Shown: positions 3,013 through 22,499 of the stretch, piece after piece
How positions within the stretch are numbered: position 1 is the first letter of the stretch
Layout: each line of letters opens with the position of its first letter
Assembly (NCBI GenBank): GCA_013202845.1
Contig: JABMPT010000013.1
Location: forward strand, 62,001-126,000
DNA from: Candidatus Woesearchaeota archaeon
Lineage (GTDB): Archaea > Nanobdellota > Nanobdellia > Woesearchaeales > GCA-2686295
Direction of reading: 5' to 3'
DNA length: 64,000 bases
Notes under the pieces: model-generated
What the model was told of the DNA's origin: nothing
What the model saw: only the letters and a program-made list of their open reading frames with translations
Databases searched by the model: none
Translations under genes and position numbers: made by a program

Positions 3013-5374
3013 TGTTCTTCAAGGCATCCACTCTGCTACGCGCGTTTTGAAGAGCGCCATTAGTATAAGTGTTCATCTTCGCTTGCTCATAAAGAGATTG
3101 CAATGGTTTGAGCGCTTGTCTAGAGATTGCAGCCAAATGAGCAGCTTTCGCTAAGTAAAGACATGGTGCATGTAAAAGTGCTGAAGATCTTATTTGCGGA
3201 ACCCTACAAACGAGTGTGGCTGCTAAACCAGCCATGGCAAGAGGATCCCTAAGAGTTGTATGTACTCCGGCTGTGAAATCCTTTAACATATTGGTAAAAG
3301 GAAAAGCGTTCAAAGCTTCTCCAGTAATAAATCTGCATTTCTGGAAACCCCTAGTTTGCTGACAGGTTGATATTGGCACTCCGGCTGGGACACCTTCCAG
3401 GAGACAATCTAGATAAGAGGTTTCAATACCTCTAAGATTTCTTAAGTGCAGAGCTATGTCAGGAACACAAAGACTCAAAGAAGCAACAATTAAACTCTTA
3501 TCAGATGATAACTGATTTCTACAAGCATCCTTAGTTAGACTAACTAATGCATCTGGTGAAAACTTTGAGCACATAAGATCTTTATACTTCTCACCTATGC
3601 CTCCTAATGGACTATCTTTATCACAAGAAGCGATGTCACAATAATTTTTCCCAGCAACCTGTAGCCAATGAGTATTTGCATCACCAGTTACTTGATTAGT
3701 CTCTTTTATTACCTCTGATGTAGGACCAGGTTTTGCGTCAACACCAACTTTTATTTCATTATAAGCCTTATTGAACCCTTCAACTGCTCCTGTGAAACCT
3801 CTAGTATAACCGCAAGATTGTTTTATTAGATTACCAACTTCAATAAATGTATCCATTCTTTCACCAAATAACCAAGAATCACTTAATAATTTGTTTGCCT
3901 CTTCTATTATTTTATCTTTTGCATTCCCACCTTCTTTCAAAACAATACTAAAACTAATATTCTCTACTTCATAGTTTGTGTGATAATATCGTCCTTTTTT
4001 TGATCTTATCTTGATTATACATTCATACTCATATATTCCCGGGTCGTATTTCCTTGCAGCGACTTCTCCTACTATAAGTGGTGTTGTTGTGCCACGGAAT
4101 GCGTTGAAGAGTTTGAAATCATTCTCATTCAACACTGACTTGTTCTGTTTTGAAACACAAGACTCTGGTCTAATCTCTAATATTTCGACATCTCCAACTT
4201 TTGGTGATAATGGAATCTTATAGTATATTTTGACATCAGAAGTAGTATGCCTAATAACATCAGTGTTTAAAACAGCGGGCATTCCCTGAACAGTTCCAAC
4301 TGTCCATTCATCCAGTTCTACTGTTTCATTCAATCCCCACACTTCTTTTTCAAAAGTATCGATAACCATATTCCCTGCTGTGTCTTTTACATATAGTTCT
4401 GCACTGCCAGTATATGGACCGTCGCCTATAACTGGGGAAGAAACAGTACAAACCCACGTTCCGTCATCGTTCTCAGAGCAAGCTCCTGTCTCTATTTCAC
4501 CGCCAAACTCAGAGAAGTTTCCTTCAATGCTTACTTCTCCTAGGTTTTCTGTGACATTAACAATAACAACAAGAGTATCGCCTATCTTGACATATTCTTC
4601 ATCCTCGCTTCCAACAGTAACGTTTAATACTTCAGGCGCATCACTATCACACAACAAATCATTCCTTAAATTATTCGCAACTTTGTTGTAGGCATCATCC
4701 ATTGTTTCCAATGGTCTTATGCTCACTGGTATCCTCTGACCAGAATTACATGTAACCTTAGCAAAACCATAACAAGTCAATCCTTCACATTCATGCACAA
4801 ATCTCTTTTTGCCTGCTAATTCATACCTAACTATCTTCTTGTCAAAAGTCGCTTTTTCATCTCTGAAGTCAATCCTTATCTTTGAGGATATATCAGATGC
4901 TATGAAACATGTCGTGTTCAAACAGGTCTCTGTACCAATATAGGTCGCATTCGGCTCTGTATTGTCAATATCAAAAGTGTATGCTTCTTCTATCAGCACA
5001 CTATCTGTATCGTTGTGCAAGGTTATAGGTATGATAACTGTATCACCTGGCAGCAATAGAATTATCTTCCTTATGTAACAAGTATAAGTGTCATTCTCTT
5101 TCTCACAGGAACTTGCTTGCATGGCCTTGTTCTCATAACCGAGTTGCTGAACTAAGGCATCGTTCCTGTTCAAACCAGATAAATCTGTGCTCAACCATTT
5201 GAAATCAGAACCAGTAATAACCATTTTCAGGTCGATGTTTGGCACCCGACCCATTGAAACAGTTGTCAATGGCTTGCCATGACTCTCGAATTCCAAGAAC
5301 TCAAGCTCTGTAACTTCTAGAGCAGTAGCAAATGGTATGATTAGAAGTAATAGTATCAAGGATATTCTCTTCAT
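3005..5374 (-). CDS. Large secreted protein with Ig-like region and Cys-rich helical C-terminus
   Basis: The 789-residue protein starts with a signal peptide (MKRISLILLLLII, cleavage near TALE at residues 18-20). Residues up to about 470 look beta-rich, with many Asn-x-Ser/Thr sites and an Ig-like stretch near 250-345 that ends in a KDTAGN-type strand. From about residue 505 the protein becomes helical and rich in Cys, about 15 in total, ending in an amphipathic basic tail. It is the first gene of a three-gene operon. A TATA-like TCTATATATAG lies at about 5411-5421 on the minus strand, and AGAGGG about 10 nt before the ATG may serve as ribosome binding site. No enzyme motif was seen. Surface adhesion or assembly is a guess from context. 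Confidence 0.78.
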   Translation of the reverse strand: MKRISLILLLLIIPFATALEVTELEFLEFESHGKPLTTVSMGRVPNIDLKMVITGSDFKWLSTDLSGLNRNDALVQQLGYENKAMQASSCEKENDTYTCYIRKIILLLPGDTVIIPITLHNDTDSVLIEEAYTFDIDNTEPNATYIGTETCLNTTCFIASDISSKIRIDFRDEKATFDKKIVRYELAGKKRFVHECEGLTCYGFAKVTCNSGQRIPVSIRPLETMDDAYNKVANNLRNDLLCDSDAPEVLNVTVGSEDEEYVKIGDTLVVIVNVTENLGEVSIEGNFSEFGGEIETGACSENDDGTWVCTVSSPVIGDGPYTGSAELYVKDTAGNMVIDTFEKEVWGLNETVELDEWTVGTVQGMPAVLNTDVIRHTTSDVKIYYKIPLSPKVGDVEILEIRPESCVSKQNKSVLNENDFKLFNAFRGTTTPLIVGEVAARKYDPGIYEYECIIKIRSKKGRYYHTNYEVENISFSIVLKEGGNAKDKIIEEANKLLSDSWLFGERMDTFIEVGNLIKQSCGYTRGFTGAVEGFNKAYNEIKVGVDAKPGPTSEVIKETNQVTGDANTHWLQVAGKNYCDIASCDKDSPLGGIGEKYKDLMCSKFSPDALVSLTKDACRNQLSSDKSLIVASLSLCVPDIALHLRNLRGIETSYLDCLLEGVPAGVPISTCQQTRGFQKCRFITGEALNAFPFTNMLKDFTAGVHTTLRDPLAMAGLAATLVCRVPQIRSSALLHAPCLYLAKAAHLAAISRQALKPLQSLYEQAKMNTYTNGALQNARSRVDALKNNE

Positions 5375-6688: not shown

Positions 6689-9316
6689 TTAGCTTATCTT
6701 CCCATCAATATTCTTGTCAACTTTAACAGTTTCAGAACTAGTTTTCAAAGGTTTCCCCTCAAAGTAAGCTTGTCCATTTTTAGCAACTAACTTTACTTCG
6801 GAAAATTCAGGAAAAGTAATCTGCTTCTTGTTTGGATTTGCACCTTCAACCAACACAGAGTCACCTGGCTTAGAATTTTTAACAAATAGTACTCCAACTC
6901 CGCTTTTTTCATCACCCGCTGCCAAAAGCATGCCTTCTGATTTCTCACCACGTAATTTAGCATGCTGTAGATTGGTAACCACAACTATCTTCTTACCCTT
7001 CAATTCTTCAGGCTTGTAATGCTCTTTCAAGCCGGCAACGAGCTGTTTTTTCTCACCAACATCAATCTGCATAATATATAGTTTATCAGCATCAGGGTGC
7101 TGTTTTACTTCTTTTACTTCAGCAACTTTAAGATTCAACTTTGAAAAAGCGTTTTCTTTCTTTAGGCCCAAAATCTTATATGATCCATTGTTGAACTTGA
7201 TTATCAGATCGCAAGCCTTCTTAACAGAATCTCGCATTTCCTTATCAGAGAGTTTCTTGTTACCAAAAGCAACTAGTAAAACCGCTCTGCTCCTATTATC
7301 AGTGACTGTTTGTTGACATTGCTTTGAAAACCTTCCAAGCACTTTTTCATCATCAGCATAAACAACCTCTCCAGCTTTTAGTTTCTCAGAGATGTTGCCT
7401 AAAGAAACAAATGGTTCGTCCTTTGATAATCTCACAGAAACATCTCCTTTAATCTTGTTAACATCATGAGTGGCCATGGAAATACCTGTCTCAACTGACA
7501 CAACATTGTAAACATCCACTACAGTGTTGATCTGAGGTAATTGTCCCTTGTCCTTCACTAAGTTTATTAGATTAATGACAGAGTTAGGACTTTTTTTAAT
7601 ATCAAGGCCACTTTCCTTATCAATTCTTCTGTACTCATCGAGAACATCCTTCCTGGAAAATAGTTTGTTTCTTACTTCTTTTTTCAATCTTTCAAGACCC
7701 TCATGTTTCTTCTTCACACTAAGGCCATTAATAACCGCACATAAAACCTTCACTCCTCTTTTCTCAACTTCTGGTTTAACACTGTAATCAACATGCACAG
7801 GTTTTTCTTCTGACTGAACAACCTCAATTTTCCTAAGAATAATCTCTGCGTCACCAATTTTATGATTTTTCAGATTCACGTTCAAATCCTTAAATGTCAA
7901 GTCCTTAAGGTTCAACTGCTTCTCTATCTCAGATGAGAATATAGGAAGAATTGGTTTTAAAACAATTACAAGATCTTTAACCAAGTTTACACAAAGAGAC
8001 AATACTTCGTGAGCTTTTTTCTTATCTTTCTTGATTAAACTCCATGGTTCGTTATCCTGAAAGTATTTATTGCCAATTGCACTTATCTTGAGAATAGCAT
8101 TTACTGCATTCCTTAATTTATAGTTTTCATAAAGTGATAGTACTTCCTTAAACTTTGATTCGATTGGAGCTGTGAATTTATTATCTTTTGCAGCAATAAC
8201 TTTGCCATCAAAATTTTTGTTTAGGAATGATAAAGTTCTATAGATAAAATTAGCCACATTGCTAACCAATTCAGTATTGGCCCTCTCAACCAATAATTCT
8301 TCTGAATACTCTCCATCAGATTCAAAAGGCATGGTTCCGACTAAATAGAATTTGAATATTTCAGAACCATAGTTTTCTATTTGTGAAAAAGGTTCTACCA
8401 CATTTCCAGATGACTTGCCCATCTTTGTTCCACCAGATAATATAAATCCGTGAACAAAGAGTTTCTTTGGCAGTGGAATATTTGCAGACAATAGCATTGC
8501 AGGCCAGAATGCTGCATGAAATCTCAGAATATCTTTTCCAATTATATGAACGTCTGCAGGCCATATTTTGTTAAATTCTTTTTGATCTCTTCCATAACCT
8601 ATGCCTGTAATATAATTTGACAGGGCATCGCACCAGACATACATTATCTGCTCATCATCTCCAGGCACAGGAATTCCCCATGGAAGGGTTGTTTTTGGTC
8701 TTGAAAAACTAATATCCTTTGCATCTTTAAGAAATGATAATATCTCGTTTTTTCTTTCTTTTGGAACTACTTCGTATTCATTCGATTTGATTTTCTTGAT
8801 AAGTTCGTCCTTGTACTTTGATAGTTTAAAGAAATAATTCTCTTCATCAACAACTTTGATATTGAGTTTTGGATGATTTGGACATTTATTGTCTACAAGC
8901 TCTTTTTCTGTTTTGAAAGTTTCACATCCGACACAGTATAACCCTTGATAGTTTTTTTTGTAGATATCGCCTGATTTTGCCAGGTTTTTCCACAGTTCAA
9001 TTACACCTGGGTGGTGTACTTTTTTATCTGTTGTTCTTATAAAATAATCATATGAAATATTAAGCTCTTTGTACAATTTTTTGAAAACACCAACATGCTC
9101 ATCTAGAAATTTAGAAATCTCTTTTCCTGATTTCTTTGCAGTTTCCCAGTTCTTTGTACCATGTTCATCAGTTCCAGTCTGAAACCATACATCCTTACCA
9201 AGCAATCTGTGGAAACGTGCAACTACGTCGGCCTGTACAATTTCCAAGGCATGACCCAAGTGAGGGACCGAGTTTGGGTATGCAATCGCAGTTGTCACAT
9301 AAAATTTCTTTTTCAT
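6689..9316 (-). CDS. metG: Methionyl-tRNA synthetase with inserted B3/B4 domain and C-terminal tRNA-binding domain
   Basis: This 875-residue enzyme charges tRNA-Met. The Rossmann core carries the class I signatures HLGH (19-22) and KMGKS (298-302), and a zinc knuckle C128-x2-C131...C145-x2-H148. The anticodon-binding helical domain ends near 495. Residues about 515-715 do not belong to normal MetRS. They match the B3/B4 domain known from the PheRS beta chain and from free-standing COG3382 proteins: LPQINTVVDVYN, then GDVSVRL, GEVVYADDEKVLGR, then an RAVLLVAFG strand. Residues 725-830 are an EMAP-II/MetG-C type OB fold (EVKQHPDADKLY, LRGEKSEGMLLAA). Both ends are in one continuous frame. TATA CCTTTAAATA at 9340-9349 puts the RNA start at or near the ATG. 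The core call is certain; the role of the B3/B4 insert is open. Confidence 0.96.
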   Translation of the reverse strand: MKKKFYVTTAIAYPNSVPHLGHALEIVQADVVARFHRLLGKDVWFQTGTDEHGTKNWETAKKSGKEISKFLDEHVGVFKKLYKELNISYDYFIRTTDKKVHHPGVIELWKNLAKSGDIYKKNYQGLYCVGCETFKTEKELVDNKCPNHPKLNIKVVDEENYFFKLSKYKDELIKKIKSNEYEVVPKERKNEILSFLKDAKDISFSRPKTTLPWGIPVPGDDEQIMYVWCDALSNYITGIGYGRDQKEFNKIWPADVHIIGKDILRFHAAFWPAMLLSANIPLPKKLFVHGFILSGGTKMGKSSGNVVEPFSQIENYGSEIFKFYLVGTMPFESDGEYSEELLVERANTELVSNVANFIYRTLSFLNKNFDGKVIAAKDNKFTAPIESKFKEVLSLYENYKLRNAVNAILKISAIGNKYFQDNEPWSLIKKDKKKAHEVLSLCVNLVKDLVIVLKPILPIFSSEIEKQLNLKDLTFKDLNVNLKNHKIGDAEIILRKIEVVQSEEKPVHVDYSVKPEVEKRGVKVLCAVINGLSVKKKHEGLERLKKEVRNKLFSRKDVLDEYRRIDKESGLDIKKSPNSVINLINLVKDKGQLPQINTVVDVYNVVSVETGISMATHDVNKIKGDVSVRLSKDEPFVSLGNISEKLKAGEVVYADDEKVLGRFSKQCQQTVTDNRSRAVLLVAFGNKKLSDKEMRDSVKKACDLIIKFNNGSYKILGLKKENAFSKLNLKVAEVKEVKQHPDADKLYIMQIDVGEKKQLVAGLKEHYKPEELKGKKIVVVTNLQHAKLRGEKSEGMLLAAGDEKSGVGVLFVKNSKPGDSVLVEGANPNKKQITFPEFSEVKLVAKNGQAYFEGKPLKTSSETVKVDKNIDGKIS

Positions 9317-11323: not shown

Positions 11324-11890
11324 ATGGATGAAAAAGAAATATCATATAAAGAAAAGATTTGGGGTGCTAAAAATTATTTTAAGACTCTGAAGAGAAGACA
11401 CAAATTAGCGGTAAAACTAAGAAAAGAATATACTGATATTTCCTATCTTATTTGTGTTGTTCATATAGAGAGTTTAGCTAATATTAAACATCCAAAAATG
11501 AACTCTGGAAAACGATTCAAAAAAATAATAAGAGAATTTGGCGGACAAACAGACGATTTTAATAAGAAATATGTTAATAGGGTTTGGCATTACTACAGAT
11601 GTAACGTAGTTCATGATATGCCTATACCTAGAGAATACTTTGAAAATGATGAAAAAGAAAGTTATGGTATTCTTGAGGAGAAATATTTTCCAGAAATAGT
11701 AAAAAGGAGTATTCCAAAGGAGTTCTTTCAAAGTAAATTCATAAAAACAGAGAAGATGCTTGAGATTACTAAGAACTGTCTTGACAATGTTGAAAAAGAA
11801 TTGAAAATGACTGATAAAAGCATATTAGTGTTTAAGGAGACTGCAGTAATAAAAAATTCTATTAAGACTGATTTTATATACAGAAAATGA
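11324..11890 (+). CDS. HEPN-like protein with RX4H motif
   Basis: The 188 residues are largely helical and basic. Residues about 89-104 read YVNRVWHYYRCNVVHD, which contains R-CNVV-H, an RX4H motif at the end of a helix as in HEPN ribonucleases; the following D is also common there. A helix with YLICVVHIESLANI near residue 42 would match the first HEPN helix. The assignment rests on this motif plus helical content, so it is tentative. The gene starts 12 nt after the membrane protein gene and overlaps the HNH gene by ATGA. Confidence 0.55.
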   Translation: MDEKEISYKEKIWGAKNYFKTLKRRHKLAVKLRKEYTDISYLICVVHIESLANIKHPKMNSGKRFKKIIREFGGQTDDFNKKYVNRVWHYYRCNVVHDMPIPREYFENDEKESYGILEEKYFPEIVKRSIPKEFFQSKFIKTEKMLEITKNCLDNVEKELKMTDKSILVFKETAVIKNSIKTDFIYRK

Positions 11891-12141
11891 AATTTAAAAT
11901 ATTTAAGAAGAAAGGTTATCAAGCCTATAAAACCAAAGACGGCAATAGAAAGACTATTTATTCTAGAGTTGCCGAGAAGAAGTATAAGTATGAACACATA
12001 CCAAAAGGATTTATCATACATCACATTGATGGTAATAAGAATAATAACAGGTCTAAAAACTTGATGTTGTTACATCAAAAAGACCATTACAGATTACACG
12101 TGAAAAAAGATATAAAAATTGAGGAAGTAAAGAAAAAATGA
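11887..12141 (+). CDS. Small HNH nuclease-like protein
   Basis: This 84-residue protein carries a compact HNH motif: IPKGFIIHHIDGNKNNN, then SKNLMLL, then DHYRLH. That gives the His-His-Ile-Asp-Gly, Asn and final His positions of phage-type HNH endonucleases. The N-terminus is basic (FKIFKKKGYQAYK). It overlaps the upstream HEPN-like gene and the downstream 23-codon gene by ATGA on both sides. It is likely DNA-binding and may be a nicking enzyme; a solitary HNH can also be a homing-type remnant. Confidence 0.75.
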   Translation: MKFKIFKKKGYQAYKTKDGNRKTIYSRVAEKKYKYEHIPKGFIIHHIDGNKNNNRSKNLMLLHQKDHYRLHVKKDIKIEEVKKK

Positions 12142-15466: not shown

Positions 15467-16264
15467 TTATTCTAAATATTGCCCTTTGTGAAGTTTTCTT
15501 GTATCTGCAGATTTAGCTGGAAATGCATTTGTTCCTTTTCTGACATACACTTTATGATTGTATTGATAAACTTCTTTTCTGTTCCATGCAGGTACTGATA
15601 AGAGGATTATTTCTTGACCTAAGACTTTTTGTTGTTTTATTTTGACATTTGGTGGCGAGGGGTCTATCGAATCTCTAATAGTGTTTTGTAAAGGCTGATC
15701 AAGTTCTTGTGCTCTTAAATCAGTACCCACTATTTTTCCACTATCTTCAACACCATATAAAATTATCCCTCCATTTTTGTTATGAAGCATAGCAGCTATT
15801 TCTTTGACTATTTTTTTGAATTCAGTTCCTGCAGCCTTAAATTCATGTATTTGGTTCTCTCCAGAGCTACAGATATCTATAATATTCTTCTCCGATGGAA
15901 AAGAAATATATGTAACTTTTTGAGTTCTTTTTTTATTCCTCTTTGTGACTATCTGAACAGTTTTTTGTGATTTTATAGGATTCTGAAAGTAAGATATTGG
16001 TATTTGTTTAACTAAAGAAACTTTTTCATATACTATAGAACCTTCTTTTTGAACTTTTCTTCCTTCCGAATCCTTTTTAATGTTTATTAAACCAACATCT
16101 TTTATTTTTCTAAAATCATTTAAGGTAGAAGTCAAACTTTTATTGGTTTTTCTTGCAATATCTTTCGCACTCATACGCCCATTTACTAACTTAAACACAT
16201 CTAATCTTTTTGGCGCATCAGAAAAAATAAATCTTCCTCTAGATATTATTTCTTGTATATCCAT
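15467..16264 (-). CDS. AlbA_2 (Schlafen-type) domain protein with N-terminal HTH
   Basis: Residues about 20-65 form a winged-helix (MSAKDIARKTNKSLTSTLNDF). Residues about 135-255 match the AlbA_2/Schlafen core: HEFKAAG, IAAMLHNKNGGIILYGVED, KIVGTDL, ILLSVPAW, VYVRKGTNAFPA. AlbA_2 proteins bind or cut nucleic acid (Schlafen) or act as regulators; several occur in defence contexts. It lies 9 nt after a series of four tiny HTH genes in the same direction, so it is the last gene of a five-gene operon from 17065. The bond it cuts, if any, is not evident. Confidence 0.82.
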   Translation of the reverse strand: MDIQEIISRGRFIFSDAPKRLDVFKLVNGRMSAKDIARKTNKSLTSTLNDFRKIKDVGLINIKKDSEGRKVQKEGSIVYEKVSLVKQIPISYFQNPIKSQKTVQIVTKRNKKRTQKVTYISFPSEKNIIDICSSGENQIHEFKAAGTEFKKIVKEIAAMLHNKNGGIILYGVEDSGKIVGTDLRAQELDQPLQNTIRDSIDPSPPNVKIKQQKVLGQEIILLSVPAWNRKEVYQYNHKVYVRKGTNAFPAKSADTRKLHKGQYLE

Positions 16265-16273
16265 TTTACTTTT

Positions 16274-16438
16274 TTACTTTCTAGAATATTTTTTCTTATC
16301 CAATAATTGACTTACTCTTCCTTTTGAAATTCCTAAAGCTTTACCAATAGCTGTGTTATCTATTTTCATTTTTTGAAGAGCTAAAATGATTAAAGCTTTT
16401 ATATCTTGCAATTCTTCTTTTAGTTGTATTTCATTCAT
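16274..16438 (-). CDS. Tiny HTH protein, fourth of the tandem array
   Basis: ATG at 16438-16436 overlaps the preceding stop as ATGA, and TAA is at 16274-16276, giving 54 residues. It starts MNEIQLKEELQDIKALI and carries a helix-turn-helix, NTAIGKALGISKGRVSQLL. It is plainly related in layout to the three HTH genes upstream: an N-terminal amphipathic helix, then an HTH, then a Lys-rich end. It has lost part of the linker between the two. It is followed by the AlbA_2 gene after 9 nt. Confidence 0.7.
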   Translation of the reverse strand: MNEIQLKEELQDIKALIILALQKMKIDNTAIGKALGISKGRVSQLLDKKKYSRK

Positions 16439-16632
16439 TTTTTCTTCCATCCTTTAGAAGTTCTAACACTACTTTCTGCAAGGCCAATAAAATCCCCTAT
16501 TTCTTTTGAGTTTAAACCACTTTGTTTTAAAACATAAACTTTTTTATCTCTATCATCCAAATTTTGAGAGATTATTATGCCACTTAATTTGTCAATTTTC
16601 TTACAAAGTATGTTAAATTGTTTTTCTTCCAT
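16435..16632 (-). CDS. Tiny HTH protein, third of the tandem array
   Basis: 65 residues: an N-terminal helix beginning MEEKQFNILCKKIDKL, then a sigma-70 region 4-like helix-turn-helix LKQSGLNSKEIGDFIGLAES, ending GWKKK. It starts 4 nt after the neighbouring gene ends and overlaps the next by ATGA. No further domain. It probably binds DNA as a dimer through the N-terminal helix, alone or with its paralogues. Confidence 0.72.
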   Translation of the reverse strand: MEEKQFNILCKKIDKLSGIIISQNLDDRDKKVYVLKQSGLNSKEIGDFIGLAESSVRTSKGWKKK

Positions 16633-16636
16633 AAAA

Positions 16637-16846
16637 TCACCTTTTCTTTTTTATTAAAGTTAATTCTTTAGAGATATGACCAGGCTTTTTTCCGAGAATT
16701 TGAGCTATTTTTGAAGGTCCTAAACCTGCTTGATCTAAAAGTATTATGTTTTCTCTTAATGTTTTATTTCTTATAAGTGACGCTGTCTGTATATGTATTA
16801 AAACATTTATTCCTTGCATTAATTCCTTGAATTGTTTTTCATTCAT
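16637..16846 (-). CDS. Tiny HTH protein, second of the tandem array
   Basis: 69 residues: MNEKQFKELMQGINVLI, a middle helix with IRNKTLRENIILL, then the HTH DQAGLGPSKIAQILGKKPGH and a basic tail ELTLIKKKR. The pattern GL-x3-[KE]I-x2-[IF]LG is shared with the first and third copies. It starts 3 nt after the stop of the first copy. Confidence 0.72.
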   Translation of the reverse strand: MNEKQFKELMQGINVLIHIQTASLIRNKTLRENIILLDQAGLGPSKIAQILGKKPGHISKELTLIKKKR

Positions 16847-16849
16847 TCT

Positions 16850-17065
16850 TTACACCTTCTTCTTTTTTAAGTAATTTAAAGTGACACTAACATTATTAGA
16901 GCTTTTACCTAAGATTTCACTAATCTCTTTCGGTGTTAAACCTACTGAAGATAATAATCTAACTTGTTCTTTGAAGTCTTTTTCATCTACAACACTTGCA
17001 GCTGTTAGTTTCACTAATAAACTAAGTTTATCCAAAATTTCTTTTTCTTTATTTATTTCAATCAC
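16850..17065 (-). CDS. Tiny HTH protein, first of the tandem array
   Basis: 71 residues: an N-terminal helix KEKEILDKLSLLVKL, then VRLLSSVGLTPKEISEILGK as HTH, then a basic end LNYLKKKKV. The start is a GTG at 17065-17063, with GTATAAAA about 20 nt upstream on the minus strand, so the message may be leaderless. It leads the five-gene operon that ends in the AlbA_2 gene. The exact start is the least certain part. Confidence 0.68.
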   Translation of the reverse strand: MIEINKEKEILDKLSLLVKLTAASVVDEKDFKEQVRLLSSVGLTPKEISEILGKSSNNVSVTLNYLKKKKV

Positions 17066-17231: not shown

Positions 17232-17250
17232 ACTTACTAACTTAGTAAGT
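17232..17250. promoter_or_regulatory. 9-1-9 inverted repeat between the HTH operon and mrr
   Basis: ACTTACTAA C TTAGTAAGT is perfectly symmetric about 17241. It lies in the 307 bp gap between the divergent HTH-array operon and the Mrr gene, with no reading frame over it. It is a candidate operator for one of the tiny HTH proteins. The rest of the gap holds a TATA for each direction (about 17079-17088 minus; about 17343-17350 plus) and nothing else clear. Confidence 0.45.
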
Positions 17251-17372: not shown

Positions 17373-18365
17373 ATGAACATAGACAATTTATCAGGTTTCC
17401 AATTCGAAAGCTTCGTAGCTATAGTTCTTAGAAGAGCAGGTTACAAAAACGTTAGATTAGCCAAGAAAACAAATGACTTAGGTGCAGACATATTCATAGG
17501 TAAAAACATCTTAGTTGAATGCAAGCATAAAAAACAGGTCGGAAGACCTGTTTTGCAAAAGCTTCAGGGAGCAATGCTTCATTTCAAAAGAAACAAGGGA
17601 ATGATAGTAACTTCAGGAACCTTCACAAAAGGAGCAAAGGAATACAAGCCTGAAAACATCGAACTCATAAACGGGAAACAACTAAGAAAAATATGCGAAG
17701 ACAACAACATAATCATATTGAACGGAAAGATACAGGTAATAACCAACAAGGCAATAACACATCCAGACAGGAAAGAAATAAAGAAACTGATTACAAGCCA
17801 ACTAAAGAAGATAAAAGGATTCCAAAAAGCAAATATCAAAACAGAATACGACTACATTCCAGCATACCTGGTAAGGTACAACATCCACGAATACAAAGAC
17901 TTCACAGCAATAAACGGGATGACTGGAAAAGAACTAGAACATTTAGAATACTACTTCAAAGAAAAGCCAAAGACAGAAAAGAGGAAGATAAAAGAGCAAT
18001 ACGAATACACAGAAGAAGAACTAATAGAGAAAGCAAAAGAGATAATCACAAAGAAACACACAGAAACAACGATATACAAAGGAAGCAACAACCAAACATA
18101 CCAAAGACAAACAAAACCAAAAACAACAGACATAACAATTTTCGAAGCGATACCCCTATACCTGCCGATAATAAGGAATGAGATAAAAATAAAGAAAGAA
18201 GTTTATGAACAAGAGATTCTGGCAAAAGGAGATGATTTATTGTATCTGGAGAATGAGCTGGGAGAGTGTTCAATAACAAAGAGAAAACCAAAAATATTCA
18301 GAACATTATATCTTAACAAAGAAGGGAAGATAACTTGTTGGTTTCATAAAAAAGGTTTCTTTTGA
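17373..18365 (+). CDS. Mrr-type restriction endonuclease family protein
   Basis: The first 110 residues of this 330-residue protein form an Mrr_cat nuclease domain: GFQFESFVAIVLRRAGY (E12), DLGADI (D39), VECKHKKQVG (E49-x-K51), MIVTSGTFTKGAKEY and a final INGKQL. That places the PD-(D/E)xK residues D39, E49 and K51. Residues 130-330 are Lys-rich and unassigned, ending in a compact motif GECSITKRK...LYLNKEGK...CWFHKK. Mrr enzymes cut modified or foreign DNA; some archaeal relatives act in recombination. CATATAAA about 25 nt before the ATG suggests leaderless transcription. A copy of the C-terminal motif lies at 19350-19454. Confidence 0.85.
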   Translation: MNIDNLSGFQFESFVAIVLRRAGYKNVRLAKKTNDLGADIFIGKNILVECKHKKQVGRPVLQKLQGAMLHFKRNKGMIVTSGTFTKGAKEYKPENIELINGKQLRKICEDNNIIILNGKIQVITNKAITHPDRKEIKKLITSQLKKIKGFQKANIKTEYDYIPAYLVRYNIHEYKDFTAINGMTGKELEHLEYYFKEKPKTEKRKIKEQYEYTEEELIEKAKEIITKKHTETTIYKGSNNQTYQRQTKPKTTDITIFEAIPLYLPIIRNEIKIKKEVYEQEILAKGDDLLYLENELGECSITKRKPKIFRTLYLNKEGKITCWFHKKGFF

Positions 18366-20642: not shown

Positions 20643-22499
20643 ATGGATGAAGAATTTTATAAAAAAGTTTTAGAAACAGAAGACTTCAAAGAATATAATT
20701 TCGAATCTGAGATTGAGAAAACTTTTTCTAAGATTAATATACTTGTCGGACAAAATAATTCTGGAAAAAGTCGACTTATAAGAAAGATTTTTGCTCATCC
20801 TTTATTTAAAGATACAAAAAGTGATGTTAATATTAACTCTATAAATAAAGTTGTTAAAGAAGCAAAGAACACCTTGTTAAAAGCGCTTCAAAGTTCTCAT
20901 ATAATTAGTGTTTCTGACCCAATCAAATTAACAGAAAAGATTATAGAAGAGAATTTGCAAACTTTAGAGGATCCTTTAGACTTCTCGAACAACATTTTTC
21001 CGGATATAAAAAGAATTAAAGAGTTCTTGGAAATGTTAGTTGTCACGAAACATATTGGCACTCACTCTTTTAAAATACACCCTATGAAAGATGTATTACT
21101 GCAAGGTTTTCAAAGCATGAAAGACCATTTAACATTTTTTAGTGAATTAGATGAATTGTATTTCTCAAAGGAAAATTTAGTTTATATTCCAATTCTTAGG
21201 GGTTTAAGGCCTCTTCAAGGACATACAGATGTATTTTATGATAGAACTACTGCAGATTATTTTAATAAAAGCAAGAAGCTCGGTAAAGGTTCTTTTGCAG
21301 ACTTGCTAAAAGATGAAGGCTTTGAAAATAGAATTATATTTACAGGTCTTACTTTTTATGAGAAAGTAAAAGAACTCAAAAATGAAGTTGAGGAAAAACG
21401 CCATCAAATTACTGGATTTGAGAAGTTTCTAGGTGAAAACGTTTTTGGGGAAAAAATAGAAATAACTGCTGTTGAAAGAACTGGTGTTGTGCATATCAAA
21501 ATAGGTAAAGAAACAGAAAGACCTATATATGATTTAGGTGATGGGATTCAAAGTCTTATAATTCTGACATTTCCCTTATTTATATACGAGAATGCAGTTT
21601 TCTTTATTGAGGAACCAGAGTTTATGATACATCCGGGTTTACAAAGGAAATACTTAGAATTATTACAACAAAATGATGGAACACAACAGTATTTTCTTAC
21701 AACACATTCGAATCATTTCTTAGATTTAACACTGGATTATAATCAAATTTCTATTCTAGCTACAAAAAAATTACCTGATGAAAAATTTGAAATTAAAGTA
21801 TTAAGCAGTGGTGACAAAGGGTTGTTAAGAGAATTAGGGGTGCAGAATTCTTCGGTTTTCTTATCAAATTGCACTATCTGGGTCGAAGGAGTTACAGACA
21901 GACTATATCTAAAAAAATATTTGGAATTATATTTCAAGAAAAATAAAATCAACTTTATTGAAGACATCCACTATTCTTTTGTTGAGTATGGTGGTAATAA
22001 TATAACCCATTGGTCTTTCTTGGATGAAGATACTGACAAAAAAACAATTAATGCTGAAAGAATTGCTGGAAAGGCGTTTGTCATAGTTGATAAAGATGGT
22101 GACACTAAATTAGAGCGAAAAGAGAAACTAGAGAAACAATTAGGTGATGATTTGTGTATTTTACCGTGTGAAGAAATTGAGAATACATTATCTTCAGAAG
22201 TCATAAAAGATATTATTAAGAAATATGAAAAAGGAATTGAAGACAAACAATTCTCAAATTTTAAATATAAAGATTATAAAAATCAAAAACTTGGTAAATT
22301 TATAGAAGAAAAAGCTTTTAAAGAGTACAGCCCAAAGAGAAAAGGAGGTTATAAAGAACCTTCTGGCACTCTTAAAGAGAAATTGTCTTTTTGTAATAAA
22401 GCATTAGATGTTCTGGAGGATGAAGATCAACTAACAGAAGAAGTCAGAAAGTTATTGAATAAAATAAAAGAGTTTATTGAACGAAACAATCCAAAGTAA
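20643..22499 (+). CDS. OLD-family ATPase with TOPRIM nuclease domain
   Basis: The 618-residue protein has an ABC-type ATPase interrupted by a helical region: Walker A GQNNSGKS (36-43), a GDGIQSLIILTFPL signature near 298, Walker B VFFIEEPEFMIHP near 320, and the H-loop TTHSNHFLD near 355. A TOPRIM nuclease follows: TIWVEGVTDRLYL near 415 and AFVIVDKDGD near 480. That domain order is the OLD (overcoming lysogenization defect) family. With no helicase partner next door it would be a stand-alone type. Such proteins are nucleases, often in phage defence. Confidence 0.9.
   Translation: MDEEFYKKVLETEDFKEYNFESEIEKTFSKINILVGQNNSGKSRLIRKIFAHPLFKDTKSDVNINSINKVVKEAKNTLLKALQSSHIISVSDPIKLTEKIIEENLQTLEDPLDFSNNIFPDIKRIKEFLEMLVVTKHIGTHSFKIHPMKDVLLQGFQSMKDHLTFFSELDELYFSKENLVYIPILRGLRPLQGHTDVFYDRTTADYFNKSKKLGKGSFADLLKDEGFENRIIFTGLTFYEKVKELKNEVEEKRHQITGFEKFLGENVFGEKIEITAVERTGVVHIKIGKETERPIYDLGDGIQSLIILTFPLFIYENAVFFIEEPEFMIHPGLQRKYLELLQQNDGTQQYFLTTHSNHFLDLTLDYNQISILATKKLPDEKFEIKVLSSGDKGLLRELGVQNSSVFLSNCTIWVEGVTDRLYLKKYLELYFKKNKINFIEDIHYSFVEYGGNNITHWSFLDEDTDKKTINAERIAGKAFVIVDKDGDTKLERKEKLEKQLGDDLCILPCEEIENTLSSEVIKDIIKKYEKGIEDKQFSNFKYKDYKNQKLGKFIEEKAFKEYSPKRKGGYKEPSGTLKEKLSFCNKALDVLEDEDQLTEEVRKLLNKIKEFIERNNPK

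Follow-up and report, generated by a model that had tools for sequence, protein, structure and literature searches.

We analysed a stretch of 64,000 nucleotides (hereafter the window) from a Candidatus Woesearchaeota archaeon (assembly GCA_013202845.1, contig JABMPT010000013.1, positions 62,001 to 126,000), concentrating on an operon in which four genes for tiny helix-turn-helix (HTH) proteins precede a gene for a larger protein made of a winged HTH (wHTH) and a Schlafen-type AlbA_2 domain. Because similar arrays recur in 18 other loci, this arrangement is not due to chance. We hold it very probable that the array system is real and, within the searches reported here, undescribed. As an explanation of the whole, we favour a modular conflict system (defence or abortive-infection-like), at what we judge to be even chances.

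The window operon and the recurrence of its arrangement

The initial annotation of this DNA, made from the sequence, had described four tandem genes for proteins of 71, 69, 65 and 54 amino acids (aa), followed after 9 nt by an AlbA_2 gene. Open reading frames (ORFs), coordinates and spacings agree with that description (Table 1), successive genes from T1 to the larger gene being spaced by 3, 4, -4 (an ATGA overlap) and 9 nt; an alternative upstream ATG at 16450 would give T4 58 aa. The AlbA_2 assignment of the 265-aa protein was equally sound (PF04326, SLFN_AlbA_2, residues 136-247; 70.2 bits for a cut-off of 25.3, E 2.8e-19), and the protein additionally carries an N-terminal wHTH, which matches HTH_20 and the Csa3/CasR wHTH profiles (E down to 1e-6).

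A total of 751 genomes were searched, i.e. 371 from the archaeal phylum of the window and 380 from the phylum, designated 'bacterium', of the array locus L003 (JAUVYE010000002.1); the latter, with genomes of 0.5-2 Mb, probably corresponds to Patescibacteria (candidate phyla radiation, CPR). The gene content of the window genome (PTH2, TrmB, DUF4443) is archaeal, and its size of 1.2 Mb and its varied relatives with small genomes suggest a DPANN lineage. Nineteen loci including the window were retained, 13 from the window phylum and six from that of L003. By profile searches, arrays are borne by 6 of 288 genomes of the window order (its own included), 11 of 371 genomes of its phylum and 6 of 380 genomes of the L003 phylum (that of L003 included). 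The 19 loci encode 84 tiny proteins of 52-104 aa, with one to seven of these and one or more larger proteins in each; three start codons in this curated set are slightly misplaced, which leaves the comparisons unaffected. Packing is tight, as 83 of the 85 intergenic spacings lie between -25 and +20 nt and 50 are overlaps. The larger gene usually comes after the tiny genes, with additional tiny genes behind it in L066, L081 and L082. Tiny-HTH matches at E < 1e-7 fell nearly all inside arrays, and multi-HTH operons of archaeal relatives came up in the search with T1 as well.

When GTDB genomes were scanned with the window AlbA_2 protein as query, one relative emerged, in L003; there, four tiny HTH genes (73, 71, 68 and 56 aa) and the gene for this 264-aa AlbA_2 protein (48-49% identity) follow the order seen in the window. 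Other sampled members of the window genus lack the array, which is therefore accessory, and its placing next to an Mrr nuclease within an accessory part of the window was supported (307 nt separate the array from the divergent Mrr gene). Two matches to T1, G009 and G029, were set aside, being located inside longer frames of 332 and 446 aa, and the G009 region is without an array. Also set aside was a cyanobacterial plasmid that matched one of four larger proteins used as queries, in the HEPN region, and carries no array.

Several loci deserve a separate description. An adjoining gene in L003 was judged by reading to have a DnaA-like domain. At L074:4842-5643, a prematurely ended C5-methylase frame overlaps a tiny HTH gene that is shortened at its N-terminal end and followed by an intact AlbA_2 effector; the site resembles a junction at which an array was rearranged. 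At L081:4256-6930, a wHTH-AlbA_2 and an AROD-like-Swt1-HEPN protein stand in tandem behind the array, with another tiny HTH gene after both. L068:3815-4675 encodes a 286-aa protein that contains several HTH-like repeats in succession and is scored by the tiny-HTH profile; it lies immediately upstream of the array, with 4 nt between its end and the first tiny gene. Finally, L082:2662-8683 has similar stretches on both array flanks (ORFs 4218-4498, +, and 8066-8683, -) that share SGDTKNYEGNLWGPNNGTGG-like residues and adjoin a serine-recombinase-like gene; it may be an insertion cassette.

Table 1. Window features, domain composition of the larger proteins and genes beside the arrays
Feature	Position or locus	Strand	Basis or remark
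T1, tiny HTH, 71 aa, subfamily C	16850-17065	-	ORF, GTG start
T2, tiny HTH, 69 aa, subfamily C, also near D/J	16637-16846	-	ORF
T3, tiny HTH, 65 aa, subfamily B, ...GWKKK end	16435-16632	-	ORF
T4, short-type HTH, 54 aa, subfamily I	16274-16438	-	ORF, ATGA overlap with T3
Terminal effector, 265 aa: N-terminal wHTH, linker, C-terminal AlbA_2 (Schlafen core)	15467-16264	-	PF04326
wHTH adaptor of the effector, residues about 16-70	16055-16219	-	HTH_20, Csa3/CasR profiles
AlbA_2 domain of the effector, residues 136-247	15524-15859	-	PF04326, conserved carboxylates
Candidate operator, perfect 9-bp palindrome ACTTACTAA-c-TTAGTAAGT	17232-17250		between operon and divergent Mrr gene
Divergent Mrr-type nuclease	17373-18365	+	PF04471 E 1.9e-26; PADLOC PDC-S02, mREase_IV; neighbour only, not demonstrated part of the system
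wHTH + AlbA_2	window, L003, L074, L081
wHTH + Swt1-like HEPN	L031, L064, L065		PF18731 E 9e-6 to 1e-4, just below curated cut-off
AROD-like adaptor + Swt1-like HEPN	L070, L072, L081
AROD-like adaptor + Ymh-type HEPN	L080
Ymh-type HEPN + unassigned N-terminus	L069
AROD-like adaptor + unassigned C-terminus	L066, L068, L071, L073
AROD-like adaptor + C-terminal transmembrane helix	L079 (5409-5858), L083 (5401-5799)
Larger protein unassigned	L032, L082
Array between hsdS and hsdR	L072
Type IIG restriction-modification + second AlbA_2 gene beside array	L068
Methylase + GmrSD beside array	L070
Methylases beside array	L071, L074, L079
NucS-type nuclease beside array	L082
Recombinase genes near array	L003, L031, L032

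Tiny HTH subunits and exchangeable larger proteins

T1 was modelled with AlphaFold2 (AF2) at a predicted local distance difference test (pLDDT) score of 85, with helices at residues 3-25, 30-39, 44-51 and 55-69, i.e. an N-terminal helix of 23 residues ahead of a three-helix HTH. Foldseek with this model found similarity to solved structures at the HTH level only, none at E <= 0.001. T1-T4 fell below the curated cut-off of every Pfam and NCBIfam HTH model (Sigma70_r4, MarR, LuxR/GerE and others), and PHROGs gave weak matches at best to the tiny HTH proteins. The layout described as common to all four holds for T1-T3, which are related over their length (families C, with T1 and T2, and B, with T3; hhalign probability 98, the maximum for reversed profiles being 2.5). 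For T4, of a shorter subfamily, kinship is at the HTH level: this subfamily scored 80-90 against the others, no stronger than between unrelated HTH types (up to 87). The Lys/Arg-rich end is a trait of the family: across the 84 proteins, K/R make up 41% of the last 10 residues and 17% of the remainder.

The nearest relative of T1 is L064_T2 in another array (71% identity), that of T4 is L073_T1 (65%) and that of T3 lies in the L070 array, T3 orthologues being present in L031, L032, L065, L069, L070 and L073. In a search of their own genome, T2 and T1 share 34% identity (E 2e-9). For 80 of the 84 tiny proteins, the closest relative belongs to a different array, and the four within-array nearest relatives equal the expected 4.0 (excess nil), with little change after removal of close arrays. 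The arrays are thus sets of distinct, reshuffled subunits and not recent duplicates. About 30 subfamilies were delineated by average-linkage clustering of the 84 proteins, and most arrays hold each at most once; since they mix different old subfamilies and not copies of one, the idea of non-redundant subunits is strengthened. Aligned orthologues gave nonsynonymous divergence (dN) of 0.10-0.45 with synonymous divergence (dS) above 1.6 or saturated, which indicates purifying selection on these small genes. Subfamilies mostly split archaeal from 'bacterium' loci (F and M break this rule or come close to doing so), and AlbA_2 and Swt1-HEPN effectors are present in both groups; therefore HTH sets and effectors enter new combinations, and any exchange from one group to the other may be old.

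The initial annotation linked the tiny genes to AlbA_2. The association does recur, in L003, L074 and L081; the other effectors found in array loci rule out AlbA_2 as an obligatory or defining partner. The larger gene is instead exchangeable (HEPN, transmembrane (TM) segment, others) and the number of HTH genes varies. The hetero-oligomeric set proposed there survives as a possibility. The larger protein has its own adaptor (wHTH or AROD-like), and a toxin or defence module is likelier than a DNA-binding complex alone. One adaptor with different effectors and one effector on different adaptors are a usual signature of conflict systems.

The window AlbA_2 effector shares 48-59% identity with its three counterparts, and E136, E141 and D174 are invariant in all four (E-x4-E...D). 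Compared with the carboxylate triad of rat SLFN13, E205/E210/D248 (PMC5862951), the E-x4-E spacing is identical and the aspartate lies 33 residues on versus 38, a match of sequence pattern and not a structural superposition. Every Swt1 or Ymh HEPN keeps the R-x4-H motif by which active HEPN RNases are recognised (PMC3710099).

The AROD-like adaptor was recovered with leave-one-out profiles in 10 of the 11 larger proteins tested, L069 being the exception. Strong matches (E <= 1e-19) numbered 10 in the 751 genomes, all 10 in array loci; the next best (E 6e-8 to 1e-5) were, in the two cases read, the N-terminus of archaeal RPA. Its best matches in the PDB were 8AAJ and 8AA9, the AROD domain of Pyrococcus abyssi RPA (E 2e-4). 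AROD is a three-helix domain that binds oligonucleotide-binding (OB) folds and participates in RPA-RPA contacts (PMC10122647).

Genomic context and favoured reading

Restriction-modification (R-M), methylase or nuclease genes neighbour the arrays at eight loci. Given here as raw counts, R-M neighbours are notable because DPANN archaea were reported to be poor in R-M (PMC12988326). Two further genes near the window array are of the HNH (11887-12141) and the OLD/GajA-like (20643-22499, +) type. The latter encodes a 618-aa ATPase with an OLD-type TOPRIM match and is probably a defence gene in its own right within this accessory stretch. At 11324-12141 (+), a 188-aa protein with YRCNVVHD (R-x4-H, HEPN-like), which has no Pfam match, directly overlaps the 84-aa HNH_3 endonuclease.

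A palindrome as long as that found upstream of T1 occurred in 3% of shuffled upstream regions, the shuffles preserving base composition only, and its 17-nt core has no second match in the window genome at up to 2 mismatches. The regions upstream of the arrays L031, L065, L071, L073 and L083 likewise contain long perfect palindromes that are rare in shuffles; taken together, these sequences give a weak hint of autoregulation.

Under the conflict-system reading, the tiny HTHs, each with one N-terminal helix, possibly for oligomerisation, and one HTH, would be distinct subunits probably co-assembled on DNA; that they form a joint DNA-bound hetero-oligomer seems to us a balanced proposition. This assembly would repress its own operon and keep the larger protein inactive, with docking through the wHTH or AROD-like adaptor of the latter. 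Invading or disturbed DNA, or the loss of an adjacent restriction or methylation function, might then dissolve or re-route the assembly and release the effector, putatively an AlbA_2 (Schlafen-type) RNase in the window and a HEPN RNase or membrane segment elsewhere. The larger protein is rather probably a toxic effector, and we lean slightly towards a function against viruses or other elements. A bolder proposal, which we put forward as tentative and on balance doubtful, is a new immune or checkpoint architecture that ultra-small archaea would share with bacteria of small genome size and that current defence catalogues would have overlooked. In it, a combinatorial set of one-domain HTHs would read DNA state or identity, and the wHTH or AROD-like larger protein would couple this reading to an exchangeable killer domain, perhaps by way of OB-fold single-stranded DNA-binding proteins where replication takes place.

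A number of observations weigh against the conflict-system reading. No array was found in the collections of phages and plasmids searched, tblastn being empty with T1 (both) and with three larger proteins (plasmids), and viral-contig matches to T1 proved to be an unrelated 97-aa phage HTH protein; mobility is implied only by the accessory distribution and by the recombinase genes near L003, L031 and L032. L074 keeps its AlbA_2 protein with a single HTH gene missing the N-terminal helix, next to a truncated C5 methylase, so that the full array is not always needed in cis. A recognised catalytic motif was not found in the larger proteins of L066, L068, L073 and L082 (L032 is doubtful), and the AF2 model of the AlbA_2 effector (pLDDT 34, two-sequence alignment) is too poor for a fold check. 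The figure of eight loci with R-M or nuclease neighbours, moreover, is a raw count.

Three other explanations were weighed. The array could be an addiction module similar to type II toxin-antitoxin (TA) systems, in which at least one tiny HTH is the direct antitoxin of the RNase, the others are regulators, and the benefit is persistence of the island and not antiviral defence. Small DNA-binding genes precede a single RNase-type gene and the frames overlap, HEPN proteins are a classic type of toxin in TA systems (PMC3710099), the distribution is patchy and accessory, with the array absent from other sampled genus members, and the unique upstream palindrome is a possible autoregulation site. Known TA pairs, however, have one antitoxin and not three to seven different co-operonic paralogues, the array effectors include a TM segment, and no plasmid occurrence was found; we therefore consider this explanation unlikely.

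It is still less probable, in our opinion, that the tiny HTHs and the wHTH-AlbA_2 protein are a set of transcriptional or R-M-accessory regulators that control neighbouring restriction genes, with AlbA_2 binding nucleic acid and not cleaving it. Every part looks nucleic-acid-binding, the L072 array sits between hsdS and hsdR, methylases or nucleases adjoin several arrays, and the Mrr gene is divergent from the window array. Nevertheless, the type of R-M neighbour varies by locus (type I, IIG, N6_N4 and C5 methylases, GmrSD, Mrr), many loci have none, and exchangeable RNase-type or membrane domains with conserved catalytic residues would be superfluous for a regulator. The single fold shared by the serial paralogues might also point to a mobile HTH gene that was recently duplicated in tandem and whose copies do not act together. 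The nearest-neighbour test refuted recent duplication, and a conserved effector gene and saturated dS with low dN also speak against it; we give it hardly any credence.

Relation to known systems

The database PADLOC-DB gave no match for T1 and weak matches only for ten array HTHs, and the arrays were unrecognised as loci. The closest link is the PADLOC candidate system PDC-M34, whose B component (PDC-M34B) corresponds to the Swt1-like HEPN that ends several arrays (E down to 4e-37). This match, however, spans the HEPN domain only and not the adaptor or the tiny HTHs, the window effector is an AlbA_2 protein, and PDC-M34B was not found in the window genome. Membership in PDC-M34 was rejected: in six array genomes, matches to the partner PDC-M34A (208 positions) reached E 0.06 at best, which is not significant.

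With Schlafen/AlbA_2 proteins (SLFN13-type tRNA/rRNA RNases), the window effector shares the AlbA_2 domain and the E-x4-E...D pattern of the SLFN13 triad (PMC5862951). It differs in being short, in its N-terminal wHTH and in its operon with a tiny HTH array, and no described relative of this combined arrangement was found. Type II TA systems, including HEPN-MNT, resemble the arrays in that small DNA-binding genes overlap or abut an RNase-type gene; they have one antitoxin, whereas HTH genes number four in the window and usually three to seven elsewhere. Moreover, the arrays are without the nucleotidyltransferase of HEPN-MNT, and their effectors are exchanged, including for TM segments. The adaptor of ten larger proteins is homologous to the N-terminal AROD of archaeal RPA (PMC10122647), but in the arrays it is fused to HEPN, TM or unassigned domains and not to an OB fold, it also occurs in genomes of the 'bacterium' phylum, and the window effector has a wHTH adaptor instead. 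Through this adaptor, the array system is linked to the replication protein RPA.

No description of such arrays was found in the searchable literature, bioRxiv and most subscription journals lying outside its scope. The array architecture, for which we found no described counterpart, would fall within the known conflict modules with exchangeable effectors. It would add to them a multi-gene module that recurs with effectors of RNase or membrane type. The HTH parts of this module escape PADLOC, and its tiny one-domain subunits offer a testable case of a multi-paralogue DNA-binding assembly.
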